Part shown: positions 45,763 through 54,328 of the stretch, piece by piece | Layout: every line of letters starts with the position of its first letter | How positions within the stretch are numbered: position 1 is the stretch's first letter | Assembly (NCBI RefSeq): GCF_030269365.1 | Contig: NZ_BSTF01000005.1 | Span: forward strand, 1-64,000 | Origin: Lentzea sp. NBRC 102530 | GTDB lineage: Bacteria; Actinomycetota; Actinomycetes; Mycobacteriales; Pseudonocardiaceae | Direction: 5' to 3' | DNA: 64,000 nt | The notes under the pieces: generated by a model | Databases searched by the model: none | Seen by the model: only the letters and a program-made list of their open reading frames with translations | Told to the model about the DNA's origin: nothing | Program-made: the position numbers and the translations under genes

Positions 45763-46212
45763 ATGAAGCGAGTTGCAGCAGCAGTGCTCGTCGTCGCGGG
45801 GATGGCGGCGGGTGCCGGACCGGCGGTGGCGGCCGAGGGGAACGAGCTGACGGCCGTCCGGACCGGACAGCACGCCACGTTCGACCGGGTCGTGTTCGAG
45901 TTCGACGGGCCGCGGCCGAGCGTCACGCACGGGCGGACCTCGCAGCTGGTCCACTGCGCGTCCGGCAAGGACGTCGACGCCAAGGGCGACGAGTTCGTCG
46001 AGGTCACGATGCAGCCGGCCAACGCGCACGACTACACCGGGCCGCGCAGGTTCGACACGCCTGGGCTCAAGAAGGTCCGCAGCGTCTCGAACACGTGCGA
46101 CTTCGAGGCGCACCTGAGCTTCGGGATCGGCTACGAGGCCACGGGACGGGCGTACTCGGTCTCGTTCCTGGACAACCCGAGCCGCGTGGTCATCGACTTC
46201 GACAACAGCTGA
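45763..46212 (+). CDS. AMIN-like exported protein, copy 1
   Basis: A 149-aa exported protein: signal peptide (cleavage after PAVAA, about residue 24) and one AMIN-like beta domain with VRTGQHATFDRVVFEFDGP and the closing NPSRVVIDFDN. Two cysteines (HCASG, NTCDFEA) are conserved in all three copies and may form a disulfide. AMIN-type domains bind cell-wall glycan. The ATG at 45763 has GGGGGAG upstream. First of three tandem paralogues. Confidence 0.88.
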   Translation: MKRVAAAVLVVAGMAAGAGPAVAAEGNELTAVRTGQHATFDRVVFEFDGPRPSVTHGRTSQLVHCASGKDVDAKGDEFVEVTMQPANAHDYTGPRRFDTPGLKKVRSVSNTCDFEAHLSFGIGYEATGRAYSVSFLDNPSRVVIDFDNS

Positions 46213-46224
46213 CAGGGGAGACGC

Positions 46225-46695
46225 GTGAAGAAGCGACTGGGTGCGGTGCTGCTCGCGGTGGCCGCGGTGTTCACGGCGGTGCCGGTGGCGTCGGCGAGCG
46301 GGCACGCGGAGCTGACGAACATCCGGACCGGCAAGCACGAGAACTTCGAGCGGATCGTGCTCGACCTGAACGGCCTGCCGGGCAACTCGCTGTCGCGGGA
46401 GACCGGCGAGGTCTCGAACTGCGGGTCCGGCAACCCCGTTCCGGTGGGCGGCAACGAGATCCTGGAGACGATGTTCTTCGGCGCGGCCTCGTACGACGAG
46501 AACTTCAACCCGACGTACCCGGGACCGCGCAACTTCGTGCCGCAGGGGCTCACCAACGTCAAGGGCGTCGCGATCACGTGTGACTTCGAGGCGACGCTCG
46601 GCATCGCGGTCGGGTACGACGACGCGAACTCGTGGCACAAGGTGTTCACGCTGACCAACCCGGACCGGGTCGTCATCGACATCTACTCGTACTAG
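46225..46695 (+). CDS. AMIN-like exported protein, copy 2
   Basis: A 156-aa paralogue with signal peptide (cleavage after VASA, about residue 24), IRTGKHENFERIVLDLNGLP, the Cys pair (NCGSGNP, TCDFEA) and the closing NPDRVVIDIYSY. The start is the GTG at 46225 with AGGGGAG upstream, 12 bp after copy 1, so they are cotranscribed. It is closer to copy 3 than to copy 1. Confidence 0.88.
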   Translation: MKKRLGAVLLAVAAVFTAVPVASASGHAELTNIRTGKHENFERIVLDLNGLPGNSLSRETGEVSNCGSGNPVPVGGNEILETMFFGAASYDENFNPTYPGPRNFVPQGLTNVKGVAITCDFEATLGIAVGYDDANSWHKVFTLTNPDRVVIDIYSY

Positions 46696-46761
46696 CGAAG
46701 CAACTGTGGTTCAGGTCACACGTCTTCCAGGTGTCGCAAGAGCCCTGAGAGGGGGCCGAAG

Positions 46762-47238
46762 ATGAACAGACGTCTTGTCGCTCTGCTCGTGGCGGTGCTG
46801 GCCGTGTTCACGGTGGCGCCGGTGGCGTCGGCGCAGGGCACGCCCACGCTGTCGAACATCCGGACCGGGCAGCACAACGGCTTCAGCCGCGTGGTGCTCG
46901 ACCTGTCCGGACTGCCGACCGAGCACCGGGTCAGCGAGGTCACCAGCGTGTCGCACTGCGCGTCGGGGAACCCGATCGCCATCGCGGCCCCTGGGGTGAA
47001 CGAGATCCTGTCGGTCACGTTGATCGGTGCGGCCGCGCACGACGACAACGGGAACCTGACGTACACGGGGTCGCAGAACTTCGCGACGCCCGGCTTGAGC
47101 CACGTCCGGGGAGTCGCGCTCACGTGCGACTTCGAGGCCACGCTCGGGGTCGCGGTCGGCTACAGCAATCCCTACTCGTGGCACCGGGTCTTCACGCTGA
47201 CGAACCCGAACCGGCTCGTCATCGACGTGGGCCTGTAA
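46762..47238 (+). CDS. AMIN-like exported protein, copy 3
   Basis: A 158-aa paralogue: signal peptide (cleavage after VASA), IRTGQHNGFSRVVLDLSGLP, Cys pair (HCASGNP, TCDFEATLG) and closing NPNRLVIDVGL. It starts at the ATG at 46762 after GAGAGGGG, 66 bp beyond copy 2. The array ends in a strong terminator. Confidence 0.88.
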   Translation: MNRRLVALLVAVLAVFTVAPVASAQGTPTLSNIRTGQHNGFSRVVLDLSGLPTEHRVSEVTSVSHCASGNPIAIAAPGVNEILSVTLIGAAAHDDNGNLTYTGSQNFATPGLSHVRGVALTCDFEATLGVAVGYSNPYSWHRVFTLTNPNRLVIDVGL

Positions 47239-50524: not shown

Positions 50525-51325
50525 GTGAAGGAAGAGCTGAAGTGGGTCCCGTCGACCGTCGACGTCACGCGCCCGAGCGTCGCGCGGATGTACGACTACT
50601 ACCTGGGCGGCTCGCACAACTTCGAAGCCGACCGCGCCGCGGCCAAGCAGGTGGAGCAGATCTTCCCCGGCGTCGCCCAGAGCGCGCAGGCGAACCGCTC
50701 GTTCCTGCGCCGGGTCGTCCGCCACCTGCTGACGCAGGGCGTGGGCCAGTTCCTCGACCTCGGTTCGGGCATCCCGACCGTGGGCAACGTCCACGAGATC
50801 GCCCAGCACGACGACCCGAACGCCCGCGTGGTCTACGTCGACTTCGAACCGGTCGCGGTCTCCCACAGCAACGCGCTGCTGGCCGACAACCCCAACGCGT
50901 CCGCGCTGCTGGCCGACCTGCGCGCCACCAAGACGGTGCTCGCCGGCGCCCGCGAGATCCTCGACTTCAGCCGCCCGGTCGGCGTGCTGATCATCGCCGC
51001 GCTGCACTTCATCCAGGACACCGACAGCCCGTACGAGGCCGTCGCCGAGTACATGAACGCACTGCCCTCCGGTTCGCACCTCGCGATCACGCACGCCACC
51101 TGGGACACGTTGAACGACGAGGAACGCGCGGAGGCCGAGCAGATCGCCAAGATCTACAGCAGCTCCGACAACCAGCTCAAGATGCGCACGCACGCCGAGG
51201 TCACCAAGTTCTTCGACGGCATGGAGGTGCTGGAGCCGGGCGTCGTCGCGGTCAACGACTGGCGCCCGGACTCCTTCGACGACGCCCACGTGGGCATCTA
51301 CGGCGCCGTCGCCCGCAAGCCCTGA
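50525..51325 (+). CDS. DUF574-family SAM-dependent methyltransferase
   Basis: A 266-aa protein of the actinobacterial DUF574 (Methyltransf_19) family. The N-terminal DVTRPSVARMYDYYLGGSHN is the family mark, followed by the SAM motif FLDLGSGIPT (about residues 76-85) and the VVYVDFEPVAV acidic strand. Targets are unknown. The start is the GTG at 50525 with GGAGG 8 nt upstream. Its 3' end overlaps the convergent PheS-like gene by 28 bp. Confidence 0.93.
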   Translation: MKEELKWVPSTVDVTRPSVARMYDYYLGGSHNFEADRAAAKQVEQIFPGVAQSAQANRSFLRRVVRHLLTQGVGQFLDLGSGIPTVGNVHEIAQHDDPNARVVYVDFEPVAVSHSNALLADNPNASALLADLRATKTVLAGAREILDFSRPVGVLIIAALHFIQDTDSPYEAVAEYMNALPSGSHLAITHATWDTLNDEERAEAEQIAKIYSSSDNQLKMRTHAEVTKFFDGMEVLEPGVVAVNDWRPDSFDDAHVGIYGAVARKP

Positions 51326-52326
51326 AGCAGCCTGTCCCTGATCTCGTTGGTCTCGCGGTCGGTGAGGGTGCGCTCCGGCGCCCTCATCGTCACGCGGATG
51401 AGCACGTTCTTCTGACCCGGCAACGCGTTCAGCCGCTCGCGGACGTGGCCGGGCAGTTGCTCGGTCCTCGTCTCGCCGAGGATCTCGATCTCCTCGACGA
51501 CGTCCTCGGGCACGAGCGCGCGGATGCGGTCGCCGAGGGTTTCGACGTCGTCGTGCTCGTCGGCCATGATCGAGACGTCCCTGATCGCGGCCGGGTGCTT
51601 CGAGATCGGCCGGTACGGGGCCAGGTCCAGCATCTGGACCGCGATCCGCGGGTCCTCGTTGCGCAGCAGGCGGATGTCCGGGATCTCCTTGCGCAGCATG
51701 AGGATCCGGTCCAGGCCGAGGCCCATGGCGAGGCCGTGCGGGTGGTGCTTGAGGACGTGCCGCGCGGCCCGCCCGCACTCACCGATCTCCACCCGTTCGC
51801 CGTCGTGCTCCACGTCGATCTGCTTGCCGTGCGTGGTGTACGGGTGTTCGGCGTCGACCGTGCGATAACGCTTGCCGGGCAACAGAGTCGTGACGACCCG
51901 GTGGATGAGCTCGTCGAGCGGTTCCTCTTCGGTGCTGACTCGCCAGACGTCGAGCTGGTGCGGGGTGCCGGTGTGCAGGCGGTCGACGGTGTCGCGGCGG
52001 TAGACGACGCCGGGGCAGACCAGCGTGACGTCCGGGGTGGCGTGCCTGAGCGCGGGCGGGATCATCGCCGAGGTGTGGCTGCGCAGCATGCACGTCTCGC
52101 TGACGTACCTGGTGTAGCGGGCATCCCTGGTGACGGCGTCCGCCGGGTAGCCGAGGAGTTCGTAGTTGTGCTCCACGGGAACCACCGGGTGGTGGCGGAC
52201 GATCAGCGGGTTGTGCAGGACGTTCGTCAGGTCGTCGACGAGGAGTTGGAGCGCGTGCGGGCCCTGCGCGGGATCGGTGAGGTCGCGGACGTTCAGGGCG
52301 TGCAGGAGTTCTTCGGTGCGGTACAC
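51298..52326 (-). CDS. Stand-alone PheS-like ligase with C-terminal FDX-ACB-like domain
   Basis: A 342-aa class II aminoacyl-tRNA-synthetase-fold protein. Motif 2 is GVVYRRDTVDRLHTGTPHQL (about residues 105-124), like the PheS GxVxRxxxxDxTHxxxFHQ pattern. Motif 3 is MGLGLDRILMLRKEIPDIRLL. The C-terminus (about 250-340), RDVSIMADEH ... RTLTDRETNEIRDRLLQGL, resembles the FDX-ACB anticodon-binding domain of PheT. The layout, alpha core plus FDX-ACB in one chain, is that of mitochondrial monomeric PheRS. No pheT follows. It matches what I recall as the 'PheS-related mystery ligase' (SrmL). Start GTG 52326 is chosen by content; no ribosome binding site is visible and two hairpins precede it. Confidence 0.85.
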   Translation of the reverse strand: MYRTEELLHALNVRDLTDPAQGPHALQLLVDDLTNVLHNPLIVRHHPVVPVEHNYELLGYPADAVTRDARYTRYVSETCMLRSHTSAMIPPALRHATPDVTLVCPGVVYRRDTVDRLHTGTPHQLDVWRVSTEEEPLDELIHRVVTTLLPGKRYRTVDAEHPYTTHGKQIDVEHDGERVEIGECGRAARHVLKHHPHGLAMGLGLDRILMLRKEIPDIRLLRNEDPRIAVQMLDLAPYRPISKHPAAIRDVSIMADEHDDVETLGDRIRALVPEDVVEEIEILGETRTEQLPGHVRERLNALPGQKNVLIRVTMRAPERTLTDRETNEIRDRLLQGLRATAP

Positions 52327-52330
52327 GAGG

Positions 52331-52380
52331 ATTCCCGTTCTGGTCGGTGTGGGGTGCGGAGTCCCCCGACCGACGGGAAT
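52331..52380 (-). promoter_or_regulatory. Leader hairpin 2 of the PheS-like gene
   Basis: ATTCCCG (52331-52337) pairs with CGGGAAT (52374-52380), and inside it GGTCGG (52342-52347) pairs with CCGACC (52366-52371), with further pairing of GGG and CCC near the loop. The structure ends 4 nt before the GTG and could control initiation. Confidence 0.6.
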
Positions 52381-52391
52381 TTCAGGCGCGC

Positions 52392-52416
52392 GCCACCCAC
52401 GCAGGTCGGGGGTGGC
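52392..52416 (-). promoter_or_regulatory. Leader hairpin 1 of the PheS-like gene
   Basis: GCCACCC (52392-52398) and GGGTGGC (52410-52416) form a perfect 7-bp stem with an 11-nt loop. It would be transcribed first if the minus-strand hexamer TAGCCT (52441-52436) is the -10 element. Confidence 0.5.
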
Positions 52417-52447
52417 CAAATCGCGTCACGGGACCAGGCTAGCGCGG

Positions 52448-54328
52448 CTACTCGGGCGGTGTCAGCCGCAAATCCGGGTCCACCGGGGGCACGCCGTCGA
52501 ACGGCCCGTCGTCCTGCAGCCGTCCGACGTGGTCGAGCGCCACCTCGATGTCGGCGCGGAACGGGTCGCCGTCGGCCGGCGGCGTGCGGAACCAGTCGTG
52601 CAGCTCGGCCGGGATCCGGAACCGCGCGAGCAGGTCCTCGTACAGGGCGTCGCGGCCGGCGGCCTGCGCGCCCAGCTCCTGGTACTCGCGCAACGCCATG
52701 CGCAGCCGGATCCAGCGGTAGCGGTCGGTGTTCTGCTGCTGCTCGAACCGTTCGCGCAGCAGGTCGCCCGCCTTCTGGCCGCGCAACGCCAGTCGCTTGA
52801 TCGTCTCGGGCGGCATGAACAGGTTCGAGCCGCCCTCGTCGTCGGACTGGCGGACGTGCGCGATGCGGCCCCGGTAGCCGGGGAGCGCCGACTGCATGGT
52901 GTCGCGCCAGTCGAGGAACGTGTTCAGGATGGACACCAGGAAGCGCGGCATCGAGTTCAGGGCCGCGTAGTGCGTGCCCGAGGTCGAGGCGTCCTGTTCC
53001 GGCAGCCACACCTCGTCGGTGTCGCCCGCGGGGTAGGGCTGCAGGCTCAGGCCGAACGTGGGCCAGCGCGGCAGCAGCGCGTCGAAGAAGTGGATCGGGA
53101 AGTTGCTGGTGATGCCGCCGTCGGAGAACCAGTGCACGCGGCCGTCGCGGCACAGCGGCACGGCGGCGATCAGGCCGGGGAACGACAGCGACATCCGCAC
53201 CGCGAGCACGACCGGCAGCCGGTCGCGATCGGGCAACGCGCGCAACGGCATGCCCTCGTGCAGCGGGCACTTCTCCGCCTCTGGTGCCCCGTTCAGCTGC
53301 TCGACGACCCTGGACGGCAGCACGTAGCCGAGGCACTCCTCGCAGTACTGCCACTTCTCCTTGAACGGCAACCGGTACGGCCGGCCCTCGGACAGGTCGG
53401 TCGTCATCAGCACGAGGTTGATGTCCCCGAGGTCGCCGAACGTCACCGCCTCGTCGGTGCCCGCGAGGTCGTCGAGCTGGTCGGCGATCCAGTCGGCCAG
53501 CGGCGGCACCCCGGTCGAGGCCGGCACGCCCGCCCTCCGGTCGAGCCACGACGGCCGGTAGTCGCCGGTGCCGGGCACGAGTCCGAAGTGGATGGACCGC
53601 GCGTTGTCCTTGAGGAACCGCTGCATCGCGTACCCGTACGTGACGATCAGCGCGCTCACCGCCGCCAGCGTCAGCACCAGCCACACCAGCACGACGATCG
53701 CCGCCGTCGCGTGGTGCCGGGAGAACGCCAGCCCGAGCACCAACGGCACGAGCGCGAACACCGCCGCGGGCCAGGGCAGGCTCGACCGCAACGGCCACAC
53801 CACGATCACCAGGCACGCCAGCGCGACCACGCCCACCACCACGGCGAGCCAGCCGGGGTAGACCGACGGCGCGAGCCACGCCGAGTACAGCACCGGCCCG
53901 CCGAGCCACAGCAACGCCATCAGCCCGAGCACGGCCTTCGCCCGCAACCCGACCGCGCCCAGCAACGCGAAGAACAGGCACGTGATCGCACTGCGCCCGG
54001 TCGTCTCGCGCTTCTGCATGGACGCCACCACGATCCGGTACAGCGCGCGCGTCTTCTCGGCGGGCTGGAACAGCTGCGCCATCCGCCACCGCTCCGCACC
54101 GGAACCCGAGGTGAACCAGTCGATCAGCCCGGCGAGCTTGTCGAACCCGCCCCTGTCGCGCCCGCGTTCGGCCGCCGCCGTGAAGCCCGCGGCGATCGCC
54201 CCGGCGGACGCGCCGCCGATCTGCTTGAACTCGTAGTGGCGGGCGAGCGAGGCGACCGCGAGCGGGTAGACGACACCACTGGTCGTGCCGCCCCGCATGG
54301 TCAGGTCGCAGTAGCGGTCGTACTCCAT
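52448..54328 (-). CDS. Membrane-anchored patatin-like phospholipase
   Basis: A 626-aa protein. The patatin nucleophile motif GGASAG has Ser41, the glycine-rich start is RGGTTSGVVYP, and the catalytic Asp lies in SDGGITSNFPIHFFDAL (about residue 400). A hydrophobic insertion between the two halves (about residues 120-215) contains several transmembrane helices, so the lipase is membrane-embedded. It probably hydrolyses phospholipid acyl groups. No nucleotide-cyclase or other defence partner is adjacent. The start is the ATG at 54328. Confidence 0.9.
   Translation of the reverse strand: MEYDRYCDLTMRGGTTSGVVYPLAVASLARHYEFKQIGGASAGAIAAGFTAAAERGRDRGGFDKLAGLIDWFTSGSGAERWRMAQLFQPAEKTRALYRIVVASMQKRETTGRSAITCLFFALLGAVGLRAKAVLGLMALLWLGGPVLYSAWLAPSVYPGWLAVVVGVVALACLVIVVWPLRSSLPWPAAVFALVPLVLGLAFSRHHATAAIVVLVWLVLTLAAVSALIVTYGYAMQRFLKDNARSIHFGLVPGTGDYRPSWLDRRAGVPASTGVPPLADWIADQLDDLAGTDEAVTFGDLGDINLVLMTTDLSEGRPYRLPFKEKWQYCEECLGYVLPSRVVEQLNGAPEAEKCPLHEGMPLRALPDRDRLPVVLAVRMSLSFPGLIAAVPLCRDGRVHWFSDGGITSNFPIHFFDALLPRWPTFGLSLQPYPAGDTDEVWLPEQDASTSGTHYAALNSMPRFLVSILNTFLDWRDTMQSALPGYRGRIAHVRQSDDEGGSNLFMPPETIKRLALRGQKAGDLLRERFEQQQNTDRYRWIRLRMALREYQELGAQAAGRDALYEDLLARFRIPAELHDWFRTPPADGDPFRADIEVALDHVGRLQDDGPFDGVPPVDPDLRLTPPE

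Follow-up and report, generated by a model that had tools for sequence, protein, structure and literature searches.

A 2005 survey (PMC1262725) names Phe attenuators in gamma-proteobacteria, that of pheST among them, and reports no conserved RNA structure for phenylalanine in Actinobacteria. For tryptophan, the title of a paper by Vecchione and Sello (2010; reference list of PMC4787780) announces an auxiliary antibiotic-resistant TrpRS under ribosome-mediated transcriptional attenuation. Leaderless Cys-rich uORFs of mycobacteria have been proposed as amino-acid sensors (parts of PMC4633059), and amino-acid biosynthetic enzymes were found by Fasani and Savageau to show low cognate bias (parts of PMC4209129). 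The gene studied here belongs to the family of NCBIfam entry NF051887, "PheS-related mystery ligase SrmL", which supplies a name only. Our literature searches returned nothing in print on the Phe exclusion, leader or function of SrmL, and as far as they show, all three are new.

We analyzed a window of 64,000 nucleotides, the whole stretch of Lentzea sp. NBRC 102530 DNA under study. Judging from sequence comparison, its SrmL is probably an auxiliary single-chain Phe-tRNA synthetase that would be switched on when Phe-tRNAPhe runs short. The gene is laid out as follows.

51298..52326, minus strand: SrmL coding sequence, 342 aa, start GTG at 52326, stop at 51298, zero Phe
51637..52194, minus strand: PheS-type class II core (tRNA-synt_2d; PF01409, 91.4 bits, cut-off 19.8)
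51313..51603, minus strand: FDX-ACB domain (PF03147, 34.9 bits, cut-off 31.1)
51835..51846, minus strand: HPYT, residues 161-164, where PheRS has its amino-acid pocket motif FPFT

The name SrmL, which an earlier sequence-only reading had given, was right: the gene matched NF051887 with 454.2 bits (curated cut-off 300) over residues 44-368 of a 373-aa frame. The same reading had seen a PheS core fused to an FDX-ACB domain without a PheT partner nearby. Indeed, both Pfam domains scored above cut-off in the layout of a monomeric PheRS, and none of the five neighbor proteins scanned was PheT-like. The closest solved structures were mitochondrial PheRS chains, co-linear with SrmL across core and FDX-ACB domain. 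Nevertheless, SrmL stayed under the cut-offs of both TIGR00469, the mitochondrial-type monomeric PheRS (121.1 bits; cut-off 258.35), and TIGR00468, the PheT-dependent PheS (75.5 bits; cut-off 237.45). In the tree, SrmL formed a separate branch with 100/100 support, to be read with caution about long branches. The contig also has the regular pheS of the genome, at a distance of about 490 kb; a frame that, judged by eye, is pheT-like follows it.

SrmL proteins almost entirely lack phenylalanine. Among 108 distinct sequences of at least 300 aa (five duplicates and two shorter sequences left out), 98 had no Phe at all. Together the 108 have 38,840 residues and 16 Phe, where the background rate of 3.03% would predict 1,177. 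Every other residue type reached at least 0.49 of background, and only 1 of 607 background proteins of 250 to 500 aa was Phe-free. The PheS of the same genome has 22 Phe, and two controls of the same architecture, the monomeric PheRSs of two jumbo phages (L153 and L154), have 20 and 22. The exclusion extends across phyla. A phage SrmL in a locus of 29% GC has 0 Phe in 359 residues, compared to 4.39% Phe in the remaining long open frames of that locus, and a phage SrmL without a leader (L152) has 6. In 23 SrmL added later, which include near strains of loci already in the set, 21 matched regions were Phe-free and 22 had the leader.

Upstream of the gene, we found the following elements.

52436..52441, minus strand: -10-like box TAGCCT, ending 6 nt 5' of the leader start codon
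52382..52429, minus strand: short leader ORF (GTG to TGA), MTRFGHPRPAWVARA, from comparative evidence
52418..52420, minus strand: control codon TTT (Phe), leader codon 4, from comparative evidence
52404..52412, minus strand: strand 1, CCCCCGACC, beginning 8 nt past the Phe codon's first base
52392..52416, minus strand: hairpin 1 (strands 1:2), GCCACCC (52416-52410) with GGGTGGC (52398-52392), within the leader ORF, from sequence and folds
52363..52371, minus strand: strand 3, GGTCGGGGG, a perfect complement of strand 1
52331..52380, minus strand: hairpin 2, ATTCCCGT (52380-52373) with ACGGGAAT (52338-52331), adjoining the SrmL start, from the centroid fold

The -10-like element was found precisely where it had been proposed (52441-52436), and its position 6 nt before the leader start leads us to expect a leaderless transcript. 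In 76 of 85 distinct leaders, a TANNNT box ended 4 to 9 nt upstream of a leader start codon that is in frame, with a gap of 6 or 7 nt in 72 of the 76, compared to 18 of 3,814 ATG/GTG controls. The region between this box and the SrmL GTG had been taken for a structured leader; it is conserved and looks regulated, but it contains the short ORF (52429-52382) and is not simply untranslated. This ORF varied in its start (ATG or GTG) and stop (TGA, TAG or TAA), by an in-frame 3-nt indel and by a TTT/TTC swap, and is presumably translated. It was present at 23 of 23 Lentzea-type loci, counted with revised SrmL starts for L014 and L018. The spacing between the leader stop and the start codon of SrmL varies modulo 3, which excludes the in-frame TTG further upstream, at 52419, as the beginning of SrmL and rules out a single frame fusing leader and SrmL. 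A Shine-Dalgarno is absent at this SrmL, as had been noted, and several relatives do have one.

Of 98 SrmL loci, 97 had a leader peptide whose Phe codon keeps a constant distance to the pairing strand. The control codon was TTT in 78 and TTC in 7 of the 85 distinct leaders, and the codon at +3 from it was CCC in 83 and CCT in 2; among the Phe codons of called genes, TTT makes up 281 of 12,687. An R-F-P short ORF preceded 90 of 98 SrmL genes and 5 of 1,253 other genes; together with the -10 box, the counts were 85 of 98 and 0 of 1,253. When the leader model was run on 200 genomes of the host's family, scoring 20 candidates per genome, 29 of 30 matches lay before SrmL or partial SrmL, and the 30th preceded an apparent SrmL remnant; the model failed on 8 of 33 genomes with an above-cut-off SrmL, the host's own included. 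Of 33,644 candidates in the host genome, 150 were scored, and among these no SrmL-type leader was seen before another gene.

The leader strands covary: strands 1 and 3 paired at 4.54 of 6 variable positions, compared to 3.34 ± 0.19 with swapped partners (0 of 5,000 as good). The count of pair types on a MAFFT alignment did not exceed shuffles (349 of 500 equally high). Both of the strong hairpins proposed earlier can be drawn, with strand 3 pairing with ACCGACC (52348-52342) inside hairpin 2, whose arms gave -20.5 kcal/mol (0 of 60 shuffles equal). The full leader, however, was no stabler than shuffles (z -0.33; 74 of 200 at least equal), so the evidence for it is comparative, and folding alone proves nothing. 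Only 22 of 82 leaders paired near the SrmL start so well that no more than 3 of 60 shuffles equaled them. The same limit was reached in only 18 of 82 leaders by pairing between strand 2 and the strand that faces the SrmL ribosome site, a candidate for a general antisequestor. An Rfam scan of 51000-53000 gave no family at gathering score; two matches (E 2.9 and 4.9) were noise, and no T-box match appeared up to E 5, in line with the earlier impression. We therefore rejected a T-box or known riboswitch as the identity of the leader. Control of translation by a metabolite, tRNA or protein had been suggested; the leader does look regulated, but the controller would most likely be the ribosome translating the Phe-codon leader peptide rather than a metabolite riboswitch.

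This suggests the following mechanism. Inhibition of the housekeeping PheST might cause a shortage of Phe-tRNAPhe, a PheRS inhibitor or PheRS failure presumably being the natural trigger. The ribosome translating the leader would then wait at the Phe codon and shift the choice among mutually exclusive leader helices, so that transcription or translation of SrmL is allowed. Because it has almost no Phe codons, SrmL could be completed while most other proteins stall, and the finished enzyme would recharge tRNAPhe and restore translation.

Alignment with PheRS places R110, R111 and R207 of SrmL as the arginines of class II synthetase motifs 2 and 3, and these residues, along with D112, G202, G204, T164 and A200, were invariant in 47 of 47. 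In the pocket, FPFT of PheRS is replaced by HPYT, AFG by AMG and HQLE by HQLD. T164 and A200 are the putative equivalents of E. coli PheS T251 and A294. Exchange of these two E. coli residues leads to acceptance of p-Cl-Phe (parts of PMC9329067). Several of the departures (FPFT to HPYT, AFG to AMG) replace a Phe, which is what exclusion of Phe from the entire protein would lead to. The earlier proposal that the substrate may not be Phe-tRNA is therefore doubtful, given the conserved T164 and A200 and a leader whose Phe codon ties the gene to tRNAPhe; the change to HQLD, which Phe exclusion does not explain, leaves another substrate possible. The product of this SrmL would be Phe-tRNAPhe. It seems unlikely that SrmL loads tRNAPhe with a non-Phe residue, Tyr or an analogue of Phe for instance, while Phe is lacking or toxic, the substitution keeping translation moving. 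Both HPYT and HQLD would suit such an enzyme, and it would account equally well for the Phe-codon leader and the Phe exclusion, Phe codons then being unreliable. Yet the kept T164 and A200 argue against it, and replacing Phe by His or Tyr requires no new substrate in a chain that excludes Phe throughout.

The direction of the switch was addressed by folding. A terminator with a competing strand was recognized in three lineages: the jumbo-phage leader L151, MNTNTTFNFFFSHKMV, has the form of a textbook Phe attenuator, and the Paractinoplanes and Azotobacter plasmid leaders are terminator versions. Before the 3' arm is made, the phage leader ORF holds the terminator 5' arm with a probability of 0.55-0.56 when the ribosome is at Phe, compared to 0.00 at the stop. 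With the terminator incomplete, the values were 0.72-0.77 and 0.35-0.61 in four Paractinoplanes, and 0.77 and 0.47 in Azotobacter. Full phage and Paractinoplanes leaders form the terminator (0.91-1.00) at any ribosome position; their polarity therefore depends on the order in which the RNA is made. It would also be improbable, in our view, that the leader works in reverse, with SrmL made on complete leader translation, when Phe-tRNA is plentiful, and off on stalling. This is how Azotobacter behaves at equilibrium, with the terminator at 0.90 for a ribosome at Phe and 0.00 at the stop, since the terminator 3' arm is open to capture by strand 1; a shorter competing pairing still forms with the ribosome at the stop. 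Similarly, over 85 leaders of all lineages in the set, mean equilibrium openness of the SrmL ribosome site was 0.43 free, 0.37 for a ribosome at Phe (a drop relative to free in 44 leaders, a rise in 16) and 0.48 at the leader stop, so that only the last opened the site on average; site pairing was 0.51, 0.53 and 0.09, respectively (82 of 85 leaders). Equilibrium folding thus gave no support for stalling as the ON state in Actinobacterial leaders. A reversed leader is at odds, however, with the 5' arm being held better at Phe in all three terminator lineages before the terminator is complete, and leaves Phe exclusion without evident purpose. The predicted polarity, with stalling turning SrmL on, is best supported in the phage, less in Paractinoplanes and Azotobacter, and least in the lineage of the window.

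SrmL occurs on chromosomes, on plasmids and in jumbo phages, and scored above cut-off in 33 of 200 genomes of the host's family and 24 of 296 of its class. Such a sporadic distribution would suit an enzyme supplying aminoacyl-tRNA to a biosynthetic pathway rather than to translation. We nevertheless hold this to be very unlikely: within 8 genes at 67 loci and the window, only two gene clusters reached at least three genera, at varying positions, no cross-genus partner pointed to a pathway, and Phe exclusion would have no reason. A dedicated tRNAPhe near SrmL was not found in 33 sources (the window and 32 loci); the nearest tRNA calls were tRNA-Ala, on the opposite strand and 55 bp downstream of SrmL (L070), and tRNA-Trp, about 5 kb off (L026 and L033). 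A single-sequence query found no further phage relatives. That SrmL is an ordinary PheS or PheRS paralogue, its low Phe and hairpins due to chance or base composition, is scarcely credible, since, although leader folding does not exceed shuffles, the exclusion persists across phyla and at 29% GC and no control gene has the leader with its box.

Beyond the auxiliary synthetase proposed above, we tentatively entertain a wider possibility, which we would not yet favor: SrmL may be a self-sufficient rescue synthetase, purged of its own cognate residue and so buildable without Phe-tRNAPhe, that spreads with its Phe-sensing leader via chromosomes, plasmids and jumbo phages against attack on PheRS or tRNAPhe charging. 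The attackers envisaged are unknown antibiotics, toxins or host defenses against phages, and the spread of SrmL hints at natural PheRS-attacking agents not yet known.

Compared to the described systems, SrmL shares with the mitochondrial-type monomeric PheRS (FARS2) a single chain with a PheS core followed by FDX-ACB, but it falls below that family's cut-off, forms its own branch, has no FPFT and is nearly Phe-free. The auxiliary TrpRS, reportedly a matter of Streptomyces and indolmycin, is likewise encoded by an additional synthetase gene that follows a leader peptide containing its cognate codon; there it is Trp and here Phe, and most SrmL leaders have no terminator and look translational. 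Attenuators of the pheST type have a leader peptide containing Phe codons, a form that the phage leader L151 shares, whereas most SrmL leaders have one Phe codon at the control position and begin leaderless. The mycobacterial uORFs, which Canestrari (2020) is also said to have described, are leaderless short ORFs as well, with Cys instead of Phe. The Phe-codon leader would thus be an added leader class for Actinobacteria, and a family named a mystery ligase gains a testable function. Finally, as in the enzymes with cognate bias, one needed in starvation avoids the missing residue; there the bias is statistical and concerns biosynthetic pathways, whereas SrmL, if our reading is true, represents the near-total exclusion, by a synthetase family, of the residue whose shortage must be survived.

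The SrmL gene and the short open reading frame (ORF) in its leader are located as follows:

51298-52326, minus strand: SrmL, 342 aa, GTG start
52429-52382, minus strand: leader ORF, GTG ACG CGA TTT GGC CAC CCC CGA ... TGA

The protein matched the NCBIfam family NF051887, "PheS-related mystery ligase SrmL," with a score of 454 bits (cut-off 300) and scored well under the PheS and mitochondrial PheRS cut-offs; the name given in the sequence-only reading was correct. Its coordinates and -10 box position also held, as did the proposed layout. Indeed, Pfam identified a PheS-type core and an FDX-ACB domain, and the closest solved proteins were mitochondrial PheRS chains, with both domains co-linear. 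The closest relatives of the gene were from Lentzea species, and a normal pheS lies about 490 kb away in the same 9.5-Mb genome.

We collected SrmL loci from one scan of genome contigs (67 loci) and from 200 genomes of the same family, whose scan added 30, partly from the same strains. SrmL scored over the cut-off in 33 of these 200 genomes, including all 11 of the genus, and in 24 of 296 genomes of the class, our own counted in. It was found in Actinomycetota and Myxococcota; two jumbo phages also carry it, as do plasmids of Azotobacter chroococcum and Glutamicibacter nicotianae. In a tree of 47 sequences, five Myxococcota rows grouped together (94/93) and those of the Lentzea family were scattered, a pattern consistent with lateral transfer. 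Since comparison of the loci revealed no neighbor gene in a steady place across several genera, and since some genomes carry partial or broken copies, SrmL looks like a stand-alone accessory gene. The copies in genomes G008, G022, G060, G093 and G195 are seemingly broken or split, or reflect assembly errors.

In the window, an S-adenosyl methyltransferase-like gene (PF04672; 50345-51325, plus strand) runs toward SrmL from the opposite strand and covers the final 28 bases of SrmL. A patatin-like gene (PF01734; 52448-54328, minus strand) lies directly upstream of the leader, and its cluster is the next called upstream gene in 20 of 23 Lentzea-type loci. Three similar small genes stand in tandem at 45784-47238 (plus strand), with a motif like RTGxHxxFxRVVxDLxG by eye. 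In the Glutamicibacter plasmid pGnB68 (L150), which originates from sludge near a pharmaceutical factory, SrmL directly follows a Cmx-type chloramphenicol efflux gene in the annotation.

SrmL proteins are nearly devoid of phenylalanine. Among 88 distinct proteins, 82 had none, five had one and one had two, compared to a mean of 10.4 in 607 other proteins of 250 to 500 aa from the same loci, only one of which had none; no other residue fell below 0.49 of background. Similarly, the matched region lacked Phe in 21 of 23 SrmL sequences fetched later, some of which are near strains of earlier loci and one of which (L117) covers just 85 residues. In the merged set, which omits two short sequences and five duplicates, 98 of 108 proteins were free of Phe, with 16 Phe in 38,840 residues where 1,177 were expected. 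One Phe each was present in L020, L052, L061, L086, L087, L121, L124 and L149, two in L018 and six in L152.

Base composition is ruled out as the cause by the SrmL of a 635-kb phage, which contains no Phe in a locus of 29% GC where Phe makes up 4.39% of the other long open frames. Architecture is ruled out as well, since two monomeric PheRSs from jumbo phages share this layout yet contain 20 and 22 Phe and retain FPFT, and the Lentzea PheS contains 22. These monomeric mitochondrial-type genes (L153:2372-3439 and L154:2363-3409, on contigs of 533 and 536 kb) score above the TIGR00469 cut-off. Folding apart, the loss of Phe from the protein is most readily understood if SrmL has to be produced when Phe-tRNAPhe is missing.

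Exclusion of Phe accounts for several motif changes relative to PheRS, FPFT to HPYT and AFG to AMG, but gives no explanation for HQLE to HQLD. T164, A200, R110, R111 and R207 were invariant in all 47 SrmL sequences. T164 and A200 are the probable equivalents of E. coli PheS T251 and A294. Exchange of these two E. coli residues lets PheS accept p-Cl-Phe (PMC9329067).

The two leader hairpins proposed earlier can be drawn, but shuffled sequences folded equally well (z -0.33), and comparison with relatives was therefore needed. Judged by this comparison, the leader encodes a peptide; its ORF varies in start (ATG/GTG) and stop (TGA/TAG/TAA), by one 3-base indel and by TTT/TTC swaps. A short ORF with a Phe codon and then a Pro-type codon at fixed spacing was found in 97 of 98 SrmL loci (repeats of some strains among them), and the last, L054, has a similar ORF that this rule missed. 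An earlier, stricter rule missed L014, L054 and L059 and chose the wrong ORF in L063. Across 85 distinct leaders, the Phe codon was TTT in 78 and TTC in 7, whereas called genes use TTT for only 281 of their 12,687 Phe codons; CGA preceded it in 71, and the codon at +3 was CCC in 83 and CCT in 2. Furthermore, a TANNNT box ended 4 to 9 bases before the in-frame start in 76 of the 85 (18 of 3,814 control sites), a distance typical of leaderless transcripts. When Arg was required in addition, the ORF lay upstream of 90/98 SrmL genes and 5/1,253 other genes; with the box added, of 85/98 and 0/1,253.

A covariance model built from 39 leaders gave one match in the Lentzea genome, at the SrmL leader, and 30 matches in 29 of the 200 family genomes. 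By coordinates, 29 were directly upstream of SrmL or partial SrmL and the remaining one upstream of an apparent remnant of a second SrmL. Of the 33 genomes in which SrmL exceeds the cut-off, the model failed to detect the leader in 8, and its scoring covered just the best first-look candidates, so the leader may also occur elsewhere. L152, the sole SrmL with several Phe, lacks this type of leader, and its frame overlaps the one upstream, as would be expected, in this single case, if exclusion matters only under leader control.

A second leader copy precedes an apparent decayed SrmL start in L145 (G199:C3), and in L059 (Anaeromyxobacter PSR-1) the leader upstream of SrmL is seemingly tandem-duplicated by eye. 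Toward their end, Kribbella leader peptides (L026, L027, L029-L035, L037, L039, L064, L068, L069) contain a run of two or three Cys codons, mostly in the form SCCCALS, which would fit sensing of a second amino acid.

Strand 1 of the leader RNA, which starts 8 bases downstream of the Phe codon's first base, pairs with strand 3 on the far side of the leader stop; its alternative partner, strand 2, lies within the ORF. The mean 1:3 duplex energy was -25.3 compared to -21.4 when the partner came from another genus (own partner better in 68/85), and shuffled duplexes averaged -15.9, with 0/60 shuffles as good in 59/85 leaders. With the register set by the C-run and G-run alone, 48 distinct pairs from 84 of the 85 leaders paired at 4.54 of 6 variable positions, compared to 3.34 ± 0.19 after partner exchange (0/5,000). 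On a MAFFT alignment, 84.5% of cells paired (36-66% when slid) and two-sided change cells numbered 12 against 4.6 in shuffles (0/500); this alignment gave no excess of pair types, 349/500 shuffles being as high. The SrmL ribosome site has pairing partners in strands near the leader stop, with at most 3/60 shuffles as good in only 22/82 leaders.

Equilibrium folding with ribosome masks did not find opening of the SrmL site by a ribosome at Phe; on average, only a ribosome at the leader stop opened it. For the window's own lineage, this modeling stands against a stall that turns SrmL on. Leaders of three other lineages (phage, Paractinoplanes and Azotobacter) bear terminators. The phage leader MNTNTTFNFFFSHKMV has four Phe codons, a terminator of -14.0 and a competing strand of -12.8; until the terminator was complete, the leader ORF held its 5' arm with a probability of 0.55-0.56 for a ribosome at a Phe codon and 0.00 for one at the stop. 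The model speaks clearly for a textbook Phe attenuator here, which a shortage of Phe-tRNAPhe would turn on. In four Paractinoplanes leaders, two of them covered by the terminator scan, the terminators range from -15.2 to -17.9 and the competing strands from -14.8 to -17.4, the arm being held at 0.72-0.77 (Phe) and 0.35-0.61 (stop). For the Azotobacter leader (MNNRSHRFSRPWVRSDQDRAARA), the values were -19.1, -24.0, 0.77 and 0.47. At equilibrium, by contrast, the terminator formed in complete phage and Paractinoplanes leaders whatever the ribosome state (0.91-1.00). In the Azotobacter leader it formed only when the ribosome was at Phe (0.90, compared to 0.00 at the stop), because strand 1 can pair with the terminator 3' arm. 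Arm-holding and equilibrium folds thus provide evidence on polarity that is clear for the phage, moderate for Paractinoplanes and ambiguous for Azotobacter.

The most economical reading of these sequences is that SrmL is a putative backup PheRS: a shortage of Phe-tRNAPhe would lead to its induction, and the protein could be built without Phe-tRNAPhe. An auxiliary antibiotic-resistant TrpRS reportedly under ribosome-mediated attenuation (cited in PMC4787780) offers a precedent in kind. Near-total exclusion of the cognate residue in a synthetase family was not found in the open-licence PMC literature searched. Biosynthetic enzymes use little of their cognate residue (PMC4209129), whereas in the SrmL synthetase family the exclusion of Phe is near-total.
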